A stretch of 64,000 nt of DNA, taken from NCBI RefSeq assembly GCF_002109385.1, contig NZ_CP020814.1:3681501-3745500 (forward strand). The letters are read 5' to 3'. A program made the position numbers and the translations under genes. Position 1 is the stretch's first letter, and each line of letters begins with the position of its first letter. Source of the DNA: Halalkalibacter krulwichiae (GTDB lineage: Bacteria; Bacillota; Bacilli; Bacillales; Bacillaceae_D). The notes beneath the pieces are model-generated. The model did no database searches and had not been told where the DNA came from. It saw only the letters and a program-made list of their open reading frames with translations. Shown here one piece after another: positions 14,227-20,896 of this stretch.

Positions 14227-15645
14227 TTATTGTCGTGACATCGGTAGTGTAAATGTAAACACAGATCCTTCTCCAAGTGTACTTTTTACATCGATCGTTG
14301 TTTCATGTAAGTCAATAATCGTTTTAACGATCGCTAGACCAATGCCTGTGCCGACCTTTTTCGTTCTCGCTTGATCTGATTTAAAAAACCGTTCCCAAAT
14401 TAACGGAAGTTCTTCAGGTTTAATGCCTTCACCGCAATCTTCAATGCTAATCATGAGGTTCTGATCTACTTGCTTCAATCGTACGATTACCTTACTAGCA
14501 GGATGTGAAAAGTGAATAGCATTCTCTATTAAATTCATCATCACTTGCTCAATCCGGTTCGCATCAGCAAAGACACTTACATCATTTTCTGGTGAAAGTA
14601 ACTCCACCTCCACATTATGTTTGATCACTTGCGGCTCCAACTTGGCAATAAGTAACCTTATTTGCTCACTTATATTATAAGTCGAACGTTTTAGCGTAAT
14701 ATGTCCAGACTCAAGTTGCGACATTTCAAGTAAATCATTTACGAGCTTAATCAAGCGCTCGGTCTCACTTTTCATAATCGTATAATAATGTGGCTTTCGC
14801 TCATTGGGAATCGTCCCATCTAATAAGGCAACTAAGAAACCTTTAATGGACGTAAGCGGTGAGCGCAAATCATGTGAGACGCTTGAGATAAAGTCTCTGC
14901 GCATTTGTTCAAGGCCCTCAAGTTCTTTTGCCATATAATTAAACGTTTGACCAAGTTGTCCAATTTCATCTTTTGAAGTCACAGACACTTTTTGTGAAAA
15001 CTCTCCTTTAGCAAGTTGCAAAGCAACACGATTCATATCTCGAAGCGGTGCTGTAATTTTACGTGAAATCACAAAAAGAATAAGGGCGGAGCACGAAATC
15101 GTAATCGAAAACGTGAAAAAAATCATAAAAAGCACTTGCTTATATTGATGATCAAGTTCATAGAAAAACATCACCATTGCATATTCCTTTTCGTGTTCAA
15201 GACTTAGATGAATCGGTTTTGAAATGGCGTAAACAAAATGACGGTCGATTCTCGATCCTTCAGCAAATTGTTCTCCTTTTAGAACCGACTGTATTATCCC
15301 CTCGTCTAACGTCACTTCTGGAACTTCTGGCTTTTCAGGTTCTAACAATAACTGTCCGCTTTCATCATAAATGAAAATACTGCTTTTCTCTTGCGTTAAA
15401 CTCAAACGTAAAGCAGAGAGGAAAAGCTCATTTTCCCATTCGGATTCCTCAGCAAGCCTCAGTTGTTCTTGGAGTTGTTCCTGATAATGCGAAAATGTTT
15501 CATCATAGTCGTCATACAGATTTAGATGAAACAGATAAAGAAAAATTGAACTAAACAAAAAGAAGGACAGGAACAAGATGAGAAGATAAGTTAGAAATAA
15601 CTTTATAAATATCCCATTCCCATTATCTGTTAGGACATTCTTCAA
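14227..15645 (-). CDS. Membrane-bound sensor histidine kinase
   Basis: The 472-residue protein has a membrane helix at residues 14-36, an extracellular sensor region of about 130 residues, a second helix near residues 175-197, a HAMP domain and a HisKA domain with SSVSHDLRSPLTSIKGF (phospho-accepting His near residue 260). The ATPase domain has NLIENAIHFSHP, EDCGEGI and GTGIGLAIVK. All catalytic motifs are intact. Its start overlaps the end of the response-regulator gene by 23 bp. It probably senses an envelope signal and phosphorylates that partner. The MMPL transporter next downstream is a plausible target. Confidence 0.88.
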   Translation of the reverse strand: MKNVLTDNGNGIFIKLFLTYLLILFLSFFLFSSIFLYLFHLNLYDDYDETFSHYQEQLQEQLRLAEESEWENELFLSALRLSLTQEKSSIFIYDESGQLLLEPEKPEVPEVTLDEGIIQSVLKGEQFAEGSRIDRHFVYAISKPIHLSLEHEKEYAMVMFFYELDHQYKQVLFMIFFTFSITISCSALILFVISRKITAPLRDMNRVALQLAKGEFSQKVSVTSKDEIGQLGQTFNYMAKELEGLEQMRRDFISSVSHDLRSPLTSIKGFLVALLDGTIPNERKPHYYTIMKSETERLIKLVNDLLEMSQLESGHITLKRSTYNISEQIRLLIAKLEPQVIKHNVEVELLSPENDVSVFADANRIEQVMMNLIENAIHFSHPASKVIVRLKQVDQNLMISIEDCGEGIKPEELPLIWERFFKSDQARTKKVGTGIGLAIVKTIIDLHETTIDVKSTLGEGSVFTFTLPMSRQ

Positions 15646-16319
15646 ATTTATACCCCACCCCTCTAATCGTTTTCAAAGACCATTTAAGAGAATCAGTATT
15701 TAGCTTTTCACGAATTCTTTTCACATGAACATCAATCGTCCTGGAATCTCCATCAAAATCATAGCCCCAAATATGATCTAACAGCTGCTGCCTTGTAAAC
15801 ACTTGATTTCGATTAGAAGCAAAGAAGTACAACAATTCAAGTTCCTTTGGGGCATCACGACTTCCTCCCATCAAGATATACTTTGTATTGTTTCATATCA
15901 ATCGTGAGTGAGTTCAATTCAATTTTCTCCTTTGTAGCGTCTAAAAGATTCGCACGACGCATAACTGCCTTCATTCTCGCGATTAATTCATTCGGATCAA
16001 AAGGCTTAACGACATAATCATCAGCGCCTAGTTCTAAGCCGCGAATTTTATCGTAACTTTCTCCTTTCCCCGTTAACATAATGATAGGAACGAGAGGATT
16101 ATCCCTTCTAATTTCCTTGCAAATCTCCCAGCCACTTACCTCAGGCAGCATAATATCAAGAATGACAAAGTCAGGATCTTCCTCATAATACGCTTCCATT
16201 CCTTTCTCTCCTTGATAACGAGTTATAAATTGATATCCTTCTTTTTCTACATAGAGCTGAACGAGCTCACAAATATTTGGGTCATCTTCAACCATTAGGA
16301 CCTTTAGCGCCTTTTTCAT
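15623..16319 (-). pseudogene. OmpR/PhoB-family response regulator with two apparent frameshifts
   Basis: The receiver domain (16319-15855) has the acidic pair EDD, the phospho-acceptor in FVILDIMLPEVSG and the Lys in VVKPF. The winged-helix domain continues in another frame from about 15874 to 15623, with VFTRQQLLDHIWGYDFDGDSRTIDVHVKRIREKLN. Adding one G near 15864 and one C/G at 15849-15852 restores GREVVMPPKELELLYFF, the normal junction of the family. The frame offset equals two lost bases. It is the partner of the adjacent kinase. A sequence error is more likely than true loss, since the kinase is intact. Confidence 0.82.
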
Positions 16320-16410: not shown

Positions 16411-16571
16411 TAAAGGGTGAGATATTGGAAAAAGACTGTGCTTAAATGTATCCACTGAAGATGAAGCTTTATAATCAGTGGTAGGAAACCTTACAAAATA
16501 TGTATCTTAATAGAATAAATCAGTTAAACTCCAACTTATACACTGAATCTATTTCAAAAGGAGCAGAAGGA

Positions 16572-16985
16572 ATGTTATCAATCTCTGAAGCAGCTTATTT
16601 AGCCGGTATAATTGATGGAGAAGGAACTATCACTTTAACAAAAATGAATAAAACAGGAAACCGCAGACCTATTATTTCAATTGCTAGTACAGATAAAGAA
16701 TTGCTGGATTACATTCAAAATTTAATAGGAGGGTACATAACTACAAAGAAAAATTACAAGCCCGGCACACATAAAGATTCATATGTATTAACAATTAAAA
16801 AGAAACAAGCTGTTTTCTTTTTGCTAGAGGCAACCCTACCTTTCCTTAGAATTACGCCGAAAAAAGAACGTGCCGAGTTAATACTACAATTTTATGATAA
16901 AATCACTCCTCGGAATGGAAAATACTCCTCTTTTGCATATGAACGCAAAAAGAAATTCGAAGAAAATTTTCTTTCGATCACTTAA
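16572..16985 (+). CDS. Free-standing single-motif LAGLIDADG homing endonuclease
   Basis: The 137-residue protein has one LAGLIDADG motif, YLAGIIDGEGTI, at residues 9-20 with the metal-binding acidic residue (Glu17) kept. Single-motif members act as homodimers that cut long DNA sites. The start is the ATG at 16572 with AAAGGAG 8 bases upstream; an in-frame ATG at 16500 lacks a ribosome site. The gene is on the strand opposite to ssrA and converges on it: its stop is 50 bp from the CCA end of the intron-split tmRNA gene. No intron or host gene surrounds it, so it is free-standing. It could be the mobility partner of the ssrA intron; another target is possible. No frameshift is seen. Confidence 0.88.
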   Translation: MLSISEAAYLAGIIDGEGTITLTKMNKTGNRRPIISIASTDKELLDYIQNLIGGYITTKKNYKPGTHKDSYVLTIKKKQAVFFLLEATLPFLRITPKKERAELILQFYDKITPRNGKYSSFAYERKKKFEENFLSIT

Positions 16986-16993
16986 TAACAAAC

Positions 16994-17022
16994 AACCGCA
17001 TGACCTATGCGGTCATGCGGTT
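16994..17022 (-). terminator. Hairpin terminator between ssrA and the endonuclease gene
   Basis: A perfect 12-bp stem (AACCGCATGACC and its complement) with a five-base loop is followed on the minus strand by the T-rich GTTTGTTATT. It probably ends the tmRNA transcript and may also serve the convergent endonuclease gene. Confidence 0.7.
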
Positions 17023-17035
17023 GACGGTATGGTTT

Positions 17036-17670
17036 TGGTGGAGACGGTGGGACATGTAATTCCAAGCTTTCGCATTGGCACTGACTATATCTTGAACTTA
17101 ATTAACTATTAAGTCCCTTGGCGTGTTATGAAGCACATAAATTTGTGTATGACTAAATGCTCCATCCTAGTACTACCATACAGGCAGCCTATGAGTCGAT
17201 ACACGGCTGTTGGATTACTCCACATACCGCTCGATATTACCTTATCATCCTTATCGGATGACGTAGGCTTCATCGATAAAGCCAAGTTATCACTCATGTG
17301 TCACCACATGAGGCGACTATTTCCATAATCGAACCCACGTCCAGAAATAACGACACTTACGCTTCTACGAGCGTAGTCACTGTATTAGCATTTCGCCAAC
17401 ACTTCGGCCCAATGACAGGCTTCCATGAGGCTAGTCTGATTATTCTCTTCCTTCACCCTCAGACGGAGGGTAACCGGCGTAGCCCACTAAGAGTGAGTCC
17501 CAGATCCTACCACATGGGCGATGGAGGGTGGAACCGCAGAGTGCTATTAAGCTGCTACTGCGAAGTTGTTGTTTTCTTTGCCAGTTAATGGCTTTGGCGT
17601 TTTAACGAGGCCGACCCCCTCGACTCGCCACGTAAGCACGACCTATCCCTGTCGAATCCAAAACGTCCCC
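17036..17670 (-). ncRNA. ssrA: tmRNA gene split by a group I intron
   Basis: The 5' exon is 17670-17328 (343 nt) and the 3' exon is 17052-17036 (17 nt, ending in CCA); together they make 360 nt, like Bacillus subtilis tmRNA. The 5' end GGGGACG pairs with the 3' acceptor strand, and the conserved GGATTCGACAGGGAT follows. The tag frame starts at 17582 and reads GKENNNFAVAA with tandem stops TAA TAG, giving the tag AGKENNNFAVAA once the tRNA-borne Ala is added. The T-stem GTGGG/CCCAC is rebuilt only after the 275-nt insert in its loop is removed. The RNA rescues stalled ribosomes with SmpB, whose gene is next upstream. Confidence 0.96.
17053..17327 (-). mobile_element. Group I intron in the tmRNA T-loop (275 nt, no internal ORF)
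   Basis: P1 is a perfect 7-bp hairpin, CGAU|UAU GGAA AUAGUCG, with the U.G pair exactly at the 5' splice site (U at 17328). The loop GGA can pair with the 3' exon UCC to give P10. P2 is an 8-bp stem with a GUGA tetraloop (17293-17312). The S element AAGAUAUAGUC lies at 17083-17093. A GAAA-capped P9-like stem is at 17062-17078, and the last base is G. A subgroup IA3 intron in the tmRNA T-loop has been reported for Clostridium botulinum; this one has the same position. I have not assigned the subgroup here. Confidence 0.95.
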
Positions 17671-17833: not shown

Positions 17834-18307
17834 TTAGCCCTTCATACGATCTTTCATTGCACGTTCAACTTCACGCTTTGCATCTTTACGTTTCAAAGTT
17901 TCACGCTTATCATAATTCTTCTTTCCTTTTGCAAGCCCAATTAAAACTTTCGCAAACCCATTTTTTATATACACTTTTAATGGAACGAGTGAATATCCTT
18001 TTTGCTGTGTCTGCCCTATTAATTCGTTAATTTGCTTTTTATGGAGAAGAAGCTTTCTTGCACGTGTTGGTTCATGGTTATAACGATTACCTTGCTCGTA
18101 CTCACTAATGTGTGCGTTATGAAGATAAACTTCTCCATTGACGATACGCGCAAACGAATCTTTTAAGTTCATGCGACCCGCACGCATTGATTTGATTTCC
18201 GTACCTTTTAACACGATTCCTGCTTCATACGTTTCTTCAATAAAATAATCATGTGTGGCTCTCTTATTTTGAGCGACCACGTTACGATCTTTGTCTTTTA
18301 CCGCCAT
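17834..18307 (-). CDS. smpB: SsrA-binding protein SmpB
   Basis: The 157-residue protein matches SmpB in length and sequence: the N-terminus with [20 protein letters not shown], the central [21 protein letters not shown], and a basic C-terminal tail ([20 protein letters not shown]) that enters the ribosomal decoding centre. It binds tmRNA and is needed for trans-translation. It lies just upstream of ssrA and downstream of rnr, the usual Bacillus order. The tmRNA it serves is intron-split here, while the protein itself looks normal. Confidence 0.96.
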
Positions 18308-18505: not shown

Positions 18506-20896
18506 TTACTTCCGACGCTTTTTCCCTTTTTTTCGCTTAACACTCGGAGCATTCTCATAAAACTTCTTCTTTTTACGTCCACCTGATTTCTCAGCTTTGG
18601 CTCCAGCAGCGCCTTCTTTCCCTCTGCCTTTAGCTCCGTCCTTGCCTCGGCCCTTTCCACCATTACGGCCTTTAGCGCCAGTTCCATTACGTCCGCCACC
18701 TCGGCTTTCACGCTTCCCGCCAACAATCACTTTTGGACGATCTCGTGCTTCGCGGCGTTCTCGCGGCTTCATACCAACGACTTCAAAGTCAATCGAAGCT
18801 TCATCGACATTAACATTTGTCACTTTCACTTCAATTTCATCACCAATTCTAAATGTCTTCCCTGTTCGCTCACCGATCATCGCATAATGCTTTTCATCAT
18901 AATGATAGTAATCATCGGTTAAATAACTAACATGAACAAGTCCTTCGATTGTGTTTTCAAGTTCAACGAACATTCCAAAATTGGTTACACCGCTAATCAT
19001 ACCTGTAAATGTTTCGCCAATTTTATCTTCCATATACTGAGCTTTTTTCACACTATCGGTATCGCGCTCCGCTTCAACCGCACGTCTTTCCATTTCAGAA
19101 GCATGACGTGTCAGCTCTGGTAGAATTGCATTCATTCGTTCCTGTGTTGCTTCATCAACATTGCCTTTTACGATATATTCACGGATCAACCTATGAACAA
19201 GCAAGTCAGGATAACGTCTGATTGGTGAAGTAAAATGAGTATAATATTCAGTTGATAAGCCAAAGTGACCAAGACTATTTGTATCGTATTTTGCTTGCTG
19301 CATCGAGCGAAGCATTACAGTACTAATAACTGTTTCTTCTGGCTCTCCTTTTATTTCTTCAAGCAGTTTTTGCAACGCACGCGGATGTACTGTGTTCGCA
19401 TTTCCTCGCACGACATAACCGAAGTTTGTAATAAACTCAAGGAATTTTCCTAGTTTCTCCGCATCTGGATCTTCATGAATGCGGTACACAAACGGAAGCT
19501 TAAGCCAGTGGAAATGTTCTGCTACCGTTTCATTGGCAGCTAACATAAATTCCTCAATTAATTTCTCTGCAACAGAACGTGTGCGAAGAACGACATCGGT
19601 TGGCTTTCCTTCCTCATCAACCAATACCTTTGCTTCTTTGAAGTCAAAATCAATCGCTCCACGGTCAAAACGCTTTTTACGAAGAATGGCCGCTAATTGT
19701 TCCATTTCTTCAAAAAACGGCACAAGCGCTTCGTAGCGACTTCGCGTCTCTTCATCTTGATCAACTAAGATTTTATTTACATCGGCATAGGTCATACGCT
19801 CTGTCGTTTTAATGACACTTTCGAAAATCTCATGACCAACAACTTGCCCGTTTGTATCGATTTCCATTTCACATGTGAGCGTTAGGCGATCAACTTGTGG
19901 ATTTAAGCTACAAATCCCATTAGAAAGACGATGTGGAATCATTGGGATGACTCGGTCTACCAAATAAACACTTGTCGCACGATCAGCTGCTTCCTTGTCT
20001 ATAGGTGATCCCTCTTTGACATAATGACTGACATCAGCAATGGAAACACCTAGCAAATAGTTGCCATTGTCAAGACGTCTAACATGTACAGCGTCATCCA
20101 AATCTTTCGCATCTGCACCATCAATGGTTACTATCGTTTCATCGCGTAAGTCTCGTCGGCCCTTTGTATCATCTGGATCAATCGTCTCTGGAACTGAGTT
20201 CGCATGGTTAATTACCTCTTCTGGGAACTCAGTCGGAATACCATGCTTATAGATAATTGAAAGAATATCCATACCTGGATCGTTTTTATGACCAAGTACT
20301 TTAATTACTTGTCCTTCCGCACTCATGCGTCCTTCCGGGTACTTGATGATTTTGACAACAACTTTATGACCATCAATCGCTCCTCCGGCGTTATCCTTTG
20401 GAATGAATATGTCATTGGCAATTCGCTTATCATCCGCAACGACAAATCCATACGAACCTTGATCCGAATAGGTTCCGACAACCTCTGACGTTCCCCGTTC
20501 TAGTATTCGAATGACTTGTCCCTCAGGTCTTGTACCTGATGACTTTTGATTTAAACGAACTAGTACGGTATCGCCATTCATGGCACTGTTTAAATCGCCA
20601 CTCGTTACATAGACATCATCCATGCCCTCTACTTCAGGAAGGATGAATGCAAATCCTTTAGCATGACCTTGAACTCGCCCACGTACAAGGTTCATTTTTT
20701 CTGGAATGCCATAGCGATCCGTTCTTGTTCGAACAATTAACCCTCTATTCTCCAGTTCATTTAATGATTTCACTAATTCTTTAAACTCGTCGCTTCCTTG
20801 AATGTTAAACGCTTCTTCAATCTCTGTAATAGAAAGAGGCTTTTCCGCCGTTTCGCGAAAGTGACTTAATAATTGTTGTATTTGTTCTTCGTTCAA
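18506..20896 (-). CDS. rnr: Ribonuclease R
   Basis: The 796-residue protein has an N-terminal winged-helix domain (to about residue 65), cold-shock domains, the RNB catalytic domain with [16 protein letters not shown] (the Asp cluster that binds metal, near residue 280) and an S1 domain near residues 640-720. A very basic Gly/Lys/Arg tail of about 70 residues ends it. It degrades structured RNA 3' to 5' and works with SmpB-tmRNA in clearing faulty mRNA. A GAAAGGAG ribosome site supports the start. It lies downstream of the esterase gene in a likely operon. Confidence 0.96.

Follow-up and report, generated by a model that had tools for sequence, protein, structure and literature searches.

A free-standing LAGLIDADG gene beside intron-split tmRNA genes of Bacillota: a candidate for collaborative homing at a ribosome-rescue gene

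Introduction

Collaborative homing has been described for phages (PMC3984707, PMC10448857). As those accounts present the ICP1 system, an ORF-less group I intron has a free-standing endonuclease gene alongside it, and the site targeted by the enzyme matches the one at which the intron is inserted. The pair reported here likewise joins an ORF-less intron to a neighbouring putative endonuclease gene. Its host gene is a cellular non-coding RNA, the tmRNA gene ssrA, and its enzyme a single-motif LAGLIDADG protein, whereas the ICP1 enzyme is T5orf172. Unlike the ICP1 system as portrayed there, the tmRNA pair recurs in dozens of bacterial species, with a LexA-type box before many copies.

The tmRNA intron was reportedly first described by Williams in 2002. 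Group I introns at T-loop position 7 of tmRNA genes are found mostly in Bacillota, and endonuclease genes lie inside 36 of 883 of them, about 4% (PMC11915505); the words downstream, adjacent and free-standing are absent from the main text of that survey, and we found no mention there of a neighbouring gene. A search of the open-licence literature turned up no report of free-standing endonucleases associated with tmRNA introns and none of LexA-controlled homing endonucleases. On our best reading, the pair is a case of collaborative homing, which would be new for a cellular RNA gene.

Among LAGLIDADG enzymes, the closest described relatives by fold are I-CreI and I-MsoI, single-motif proteins that act as homodimers, are intron-encoded and have their targets in 23S rDNA. 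The enzyme described here also has a single motif, and its predicted fold matches theirs with TM scores up to 0.80; it differs from both in being free-standing and tmRNA-linked.

Results

A split tmRNA gene of Halalkalibacter krulwichiae converges on a free-standing endonuclease gene. We analysed a window of 64,000 nucleotides (positions 3681501-3745500) from a genome of 4.61 Mb in a single contig (Table 1). Rfam calls a tmRNA lacking its 3' end at 17326-17662 on the minus strand (RF00023, 158.9 bits); the 3' strand of the T-arm goes unseen because a 275-nt insertion (17327-17053) splits the T-loop, and ARAGORN, run on the window, does not call the split gene. The insertion follows TTCGAT, between T-loop nucleotides 6 and 7, with boundaries set by the usual group I rules (U at -1, terminal G), and its site appears to be T-loop position 7 of the published survey (PMC11915505). 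It scores 35.4 bits against RF00028 (E 2.8e-7), below the gathering score of 50, and we infer a group I intron that would be self-splicing.

The first-pass annotation of this locus had described an intron with no internal ORF and, outside it, a LAGLIDADG gene as the only homing-type endonuclease nearby, 50 bp from the split tmRNA on the opposite strand and converging on the 3' exon. The coordinates confirm that layout: 50 bp separate the LAGLIDADG stop codon from the end of ssrA at 17036. The only intron ORFs of at least 60 aa encode 62 and 66 aa, and a search of the genome with the 137-aa protein itself as query (E <= 0.01) returned a single match. The hairpin between the two genes has an equivalent in several relatives within the genus, and smpB and an RNase R-type gene are the neighbours on the far side of ssrA. 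Past the endonuclease gene, a response regulator gene (15623-16319, minus strand) is split into two overlapping frames, a 154-aa receiver part and an 83-aa DNA-binding part, by a frameshift or a sequencing error.

Table 1. Features of the tmRNA locus in the window, with the basis of each assignment
Feature	Position in window	Strand	Basis
AAAGGAG, plausible ribosome-binding site of the endonuclease gene	16557..16563	plus	read from sequence
Predicted free-standing single-motif LAGLIDADG homing endonuclease gene, 137 aa	16572..16985	plus	Pfam, AlphaFold, PDB matches
Terminator-like hairpin separating the convergent ssrA and LAGLIDADG genes	16993..17023	minus	terminator scan
ssrA, T-loop split by intron	17670-17036	minus	
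ssrA 3' exon (3' strand of T-stem and acceptor, CCA)	17036..17052	minus	
Inferred group I intron in the tmRNA T-loop, no endonuclease-sized ORF	17053..17327	minus	boundaries and RF00028 E 2.8e-7
ssrA 5' exon (tmRNA body)	17328..17670	minus	RF00023 158.9 bits
smpB (tmRNA partner protein), context	17834..18307	minus	PF01668 E 1.3e-64
RNase R-type gene (rnr), context, host marker	18506..20896	minus	PF00773 RNB E 7.5e-119

The gene encodes a conserved protein with the predicted fold of a LAGLIDADG endonuclease. In Pfam it matches LAGLIDADG_3 (PF14528, E 1.2e-9) and LAGLIDADG_1 (PF00961, E 7.3e-7), both above the cut-off, and its AlphaFold model has a pLDDT of 93.3. Foldseek against the PDB ranks I-MsoI and I-CreI at the top (I-CreI 2i3p, TM 0.80), with 16-26% identity in the structural alignments listed. 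The acidic residue closing the LAGLIDADG motif is conserved in 38 aligned relatives, in which Y9, A11, G12, I14, D15, G16, E17 and G18, as well as T112, R114, N115, G116 and Y118, are invariant. Judging by the model, the product is expected to be an I-CreI-type endonuclease acting as a homodimer. Median dN/dS is 0.15 (30 non-independent pairs with dS of 0.05-1.2, among 72 stop-free sequences), and many copies have therefore been kept for protein function. Searches with the protein gave no match in NCBIfam and none among plasmids at 1e-5. PHROG 5046, labelled HNH endonuclease, matches it at 4.5e-21; Pfam and fold both indicate LAGLIDADG.

The gene keeps company with interrupted tmRNA genes. The 13 genomes of the genus comprise eight with an interrupted ssrA, five of which carry the gene (in G002 with a stop codon), and five with an intact ssrA, none of which does. 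Across the family it occurs in 7 of 41 genomes, and the two copies outside the genus (L026, L027) adjoin intron-bearing ssrA. We then took 397 genomes sampled from the larger order. A pattern for the intact T-arm, allowing one mismatch, matches 301 of them; a strict pattern for the intron 5' junction matches 73 of the remaining 96 and none of the 301. At E <= 1e-10 the gene is present in 45 genomes of 25 genera: 41 of the 96 without the intact T-arm pattern against 4 of the 301 with it (Fisher p 1.4e-24, in a test that ignores relatedness). Stratified by family (15 gene-bearing families, 184 genomes), 41 are observed against 24 expected, with a Mantel-Haenszel odds ratio of 31, and none of 200,000 within-family shuffles equals the observed count. 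Roughly four in ten intron-bearing genomes have the gene (31 of 73 in the strict set); at the same threshold it is absent from 55 of the 96 non-intact and 42 of the 73 strictly intron-bearing genomes.

Most of these copies lie close to ssrA. The tmRNA gene is near the endonuclease gene in 35 of the 45 genomes: in the window, at a distance of up to 1.5 kb in 24 of the 29 best loci, and at up to about 7 kb in a further 10. Its T-loop is interrupted in 33 of the 35, a few of them with a 3' exon unmatched by the pattern, and intact in two: G297, and G382, whose endonuclease gene is a fragment. Of the remaining ten copies, eight come from genomes that lack the intact pattern, and the strict intron pattern matches seven of these eight; the last two, in G153 and G357, have 36-40% identity and stand in genomes with intact ssrA. 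These two and the G297 copy (loci L073, L069 and L071) form a second subfamily of 132-133 aa, lacking the C-terminal RNGKY motif, in one family with intact ssrA. All three have GAACACTTGTTC at about -69, and the distance between gene and ssrA is about 0.65 kb in L071 and about 9 kb in G357.

In a phylum sample the gene occurs in 7 of 398 genomes: all four stop-free copies (the window and L292-L294) adjoin intron-bearing ssrA, while decayed copies adjoin intact ssrA in L295 and L296 and intron-bearing ssrA in L297. G427 has a further decayed copy (L298) at a locus without a T-arm. An order sample around G758 contains the gene in 2 of 22 genomes (G758, G814), both intron-bearing.

A named-genome set extends the association and defines the layout. 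It comprises the best 80 of 183 relatives from a contig scan, 21 of which share their gene sequence with the first survey, and ranges over Halalkalibacter, Neobacillus, Cytobacillus, Mesobacillus, Virgibacillus, Fictibacillus, Rossellomorea and others, as far as Clostridia. In 71 of the 80 loci ssrA lies within the flanks of up to 6 kb (67 found by blastn with the 5' part of the window ssrA, 4 by Rfam, run on 12 of the 80). It was not found in the other nine, two of which (L171, L197) end within 800 bp. Gene and ssrA are convergent in 71 of 71, and ssrA bears the intron in 67 of 71, or 49 of 53 once shared loci are removed; 63 of the 67 intron calls come from the pattern, the others being L160, L201, L202 and L205, the last called from its readable part. 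The four loci with intact ssrA are L199, where the gene has a stop; L203 and L207, where an intact gene lies about 1.1 kb away; and L206, where an intact gene adjoins ssrA. Among 58 loci with a pattern-matched ssrA end, the gap between the genes has a median of about 45 bp, is at most 100 bp in 43, and ranges from -54 (a partial match) to 602; in these 58 a terminator-like sequence at the end of ssrA precedes the gene. At 430 nt the intron of L146 is long, but none of its six translations contains a long open frame.

The gene-intron association proposed in the first-pass annotation is strongly supported by these counts, which hold within families and extend to the named loci, and the co-occurrence survey revealed no wide occurrence of the gene beside intron-free ssrA, though cases exist. 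The gene lineage tracks tmRNA genes and, in Bacillota, mostly intron-bearing ones.

Its recurrence in many Bacillota gives the pair the look of a selfish element in two parts, aimed at an important RNA gene. We think it reasonably probable, from the genomic pattern, that the gene encodes a tmRNA-dedicated homing endonuclease that carries the ORF-less intron along by collaborative homing. In a cell where an ssrA allele with the intron encounters one without it, the enzyme, a putative cutter of the intron-free T-arm, would cleave the intron-free allele at or beside the T-loop. Donor-templated repair would then copy intron and endonuclease gene together, some 50 bp apart. The intron would splice out of the transcript, so that tmRNA stays working, and by splitting the target it would protect the donor. 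With tmRNA preserved by splicing and the donor shielded by the intron, the enzyme could sit outside the ribozyme, behind the ssrA terminator. The T-arm hairpin was considered as a symmetric site for a homodimer and set aside: its centre is odd and the best even-centred 22-mers reach 5 of 11 half-site matches, a weak lead only.

Against a strict two-part reading stand intact genes at intron-free ssrA and the many introns without a gene. Intact copies beside an intron-free tmRNA gene occur in L071, L203, L206, L207 and the phage-type locus L210, and decayed ones beside intron-free ssrA in L075, L199, L295 and L296. The enzymes encoded by these intact copies may target another version of the T-arm, or a site past it.

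Relatives of phage type are found at tmRNA genes as well. The two best matches on viral contigs, L210 and L211, are both tmRNA-linked: in L210 the gene lies directly behind an intact tmRNA, and in L211, where the tmRNA gene is permuted, it occupies the intervening part and lies 12 bp past the CCA. They are the tmRNA-linked cases among 80 viral loci kept from 299 relatives, of which 20 were checked by Rfam and 60 by ARAGORN alone, a program that misses split genes and missed the permuted L211. Ten named phage records match the protein, and we inspected three. In the best match, Sphingobium phage Lacusarx, the gene overlaps the start of an annotated permuted ssrA; the tmRNA genes of L211 and Lacusarx are both permuted and lack a T-loop intron of the window type. 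Upstream of the Lacusarx endonuclease gene and permuted tmRNA (L299, about 2288-2407) is a tRNA-like sequence with an apparent insertion near the anticodon, which ARAGORN does not call. CcrRogue (33%) has no tmRNA annotated nearby. The relative in Gordonia phage WilliamBoone (L301, 2489-2986; 30% identity), which carries an HNH endonuclease annotation, is situated within a tRNA array, where the 5' part of a tRNA-Ser gene overlaps it; a search for a direct repeat at that locus found none.

L210 may record how such a gene inserts. Its gene is flanked by two 19-bp copies of ACTCCCGCCGCCTCCACCA, the tmRNA 3' end starting in the T-loop, although the second copy's first A could be part of the stop codon. 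The repeat would mark an insertion event 1-2 nt away from where the intron lies; it may also be of att-type origin. A point against our favoured reading is that, were recognition confined to the T-arm, the restored T-arm would remain a target.

These intron-free neighbours are what one would look for if the enzyme homed without the intron, cutting its own insertion site just downstream of ssrA while the intron hitch-hiked by co-conversion. That account is unlikely, in our view, even though it accommodates the intact copies at L071, L206, L203 and L207, the phage-type tmRNA genes of L210 and L211, and the usual position of the Bacillota gene just past the ssrA terminator. Behind the CCA the sequence differs from locus to locus, in contrast to the conserved T-arm, and a passenger intron would be predicted to leave more intron-free neighbours than the 4 gene-bearing genomes among 301 with an intact T-arm.

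Endonuclease gene and intron covary beyond the divergence of their hosts. For this comparison we kept 54 of 81 loci, dropping 27 for an RNase R below 700 aa, a short gene or an intron that was long or missing. The correlation between gene and intron distances is 0.72, and given RNase R the partial Mantel correlation is 0.55 (p 5e-4); gene and SmpB distances, given RNase R, correlate at 0.18. Such covariation fits joint inheritance. Together, association and covariation indicate that the two parts are co-inherited, with exceptions and many intron-only genomes. Recent horizontal transfer was considered and rejected, with no pair of distant hosts sharing a near-identical gene and intron among the 54 loci. 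The closest endonuclease pairs come from close hosts.

Linkage could also be passive, the gene having landed by an already intron-bearing ssrA and then been inherited vertically or lost. The lack of any clear recent cross-genus transfer among the 54 loci suits this idea, as does the residual correlation of each part with RNase R given the other (0.29 for the gene, 0.33 for the intron). We nevertheless judge it quite improbable: the association persists within families, covariation exceeds host divergence, stop-free copies show low dN/dS, and phage-type tmRNA genes have separate associations with the gene.

Many intron-bearing tmRNA genes do without the endonuclease. For 16 of the 42 gene-less genomes with the strict intron pattern the ssrA locus was retrieved; behind ssrA we found an endonuclease relic in 1 of the 16 (L104) and transposon-end-like starts in three (L107, L108, L111), with a possible fourth by eye (L109). 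Some LAGLIDADG proteins are maturases, a sequence search of solved structures lists the mRNA maturase 2ab5 (E 0.0064), and low dN/dS would suit a trans-acting maturase or a host-adopted factor for splicing the tmRNA intron, a role that we regard as very improbable given that the gene is missing from 42 of the 73 genomes with the strict intron pattern, that stop-containing copies stand by intron-bearing ssrA (G002, L136, L173, L176, L180) and that intact copies exist without the intron.

Transposon insertion separates one copy from ssrA and may separate others. In H. akibai (G001) the gene lies 39 kb from ssrA on one contig, and an element starting TGTGACTTGAACC splits the terminator-like hairpin that lies between the two; a target duplication of 5 bp, ACCGC, was identified by eye. 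Two TniQ proteins are encoded in the element, along with a TniB-type ATPase and a protein that combines TnsA and transposase domains: the element is a Tn7-like transposon. It spans L077:3140-10842 and L079. Similar transposon-end sequences start about 25-35 bp behind the ssrA CCA end in G005, G009 and G010, which together with G001 suggests a transposon group using ssrA as its attachment site. Across both surveys we examined 18 copies without an adjoining ssrA, including G336, where ssrA is 6.6 kb off. A transposon-end-like match within 400 bp behind the gene is present in strict form in 9 of the 18 and with two mismatches in 2, against 17 of 250 control windows for either kind; three copies are close to a contig end, and four have neither a contig end nor such a match. 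Insertion between ssrA and the gene is demonstrated in G001 only.

That the ssrA 3' end is merely an integration hotspot, with the endonuclease as leftover cargo of integrative elements, is highly unlikely: the 19-bp tmRNA 3'-end duplication around the L210 copy resembles an att duplication, in L297 (G079) the intron 3' end, 3' exon and flank are repeated about 1.7 kb behind ssrA, near the decayed endonuclease gene, and the Tn7-like element of G001 did insert beside ssrA, yet among 83 loci scanned (the window and L130-L211) an exact second copy occurs only in L210, the window, L188 and L190 show two-mismatch matches far from the gene or inside it, ten loci show none, and cargo is not expected to favour intron-bearing ssrA.

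A LexA-type box precedes many copies of the gene. In Firmicutes the Cheo/LexA box reads GAACN4GTTC (PMC2248561). A perfect match lies upstream of the gene in 13 of 51 first-survey loci; in the overlapping set of 81 loci (the named set and the window) the box is perfect in 18, has one mismatch in 30 and is missing from 33. Shuffled sequences contain it perfectly in 0.05% and with one mismatch in 2.9% of cases, and 465 control windows further upstream contain 2 perfect and 10 one-mismatch boxes. Its presence in 48 of the 81 loci suggests SOS-response control of the gene. Neither the window copy nor L130 and L132, which are closely related to it, have an upstream box within one mismatch; SOS control, if real, is therefore a trait of the family that the window copy lacks.

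Discussion

Our results point to a gene and an intron joined by position, association and covariation, for which collaborative homing at tmRNA is the reading we favour. A broader interpretation, which we hold tentatively and at a little under even chances, is that the enzyme belongs to an endonuclease lineage dedicated to bacterial and phage tmRNA genes. Its members would cut the T-arm, be encoded outside the ribozyme, be damage-induced in many hosts, and insert harmlessly by way of the intron or, as in L210, of a copy of the tmRNA 3' end.

The spread of tmRNA introns gains a testable answer from this arrangement. Known tmRNA introns are mostly without endonuclease genes, and a separate adjoining gene could supply what they lack. 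A tmRNA-dedicated lineage, if true, would help explain why only about 4% of tmRNA introns code for an endonuclease. The boxes before many copies raise the idea of a damage-inducible homing endonuclease. If the pair works as proposed, collaborative homing would extend from phages to a cellular ribosome-rescue gene.
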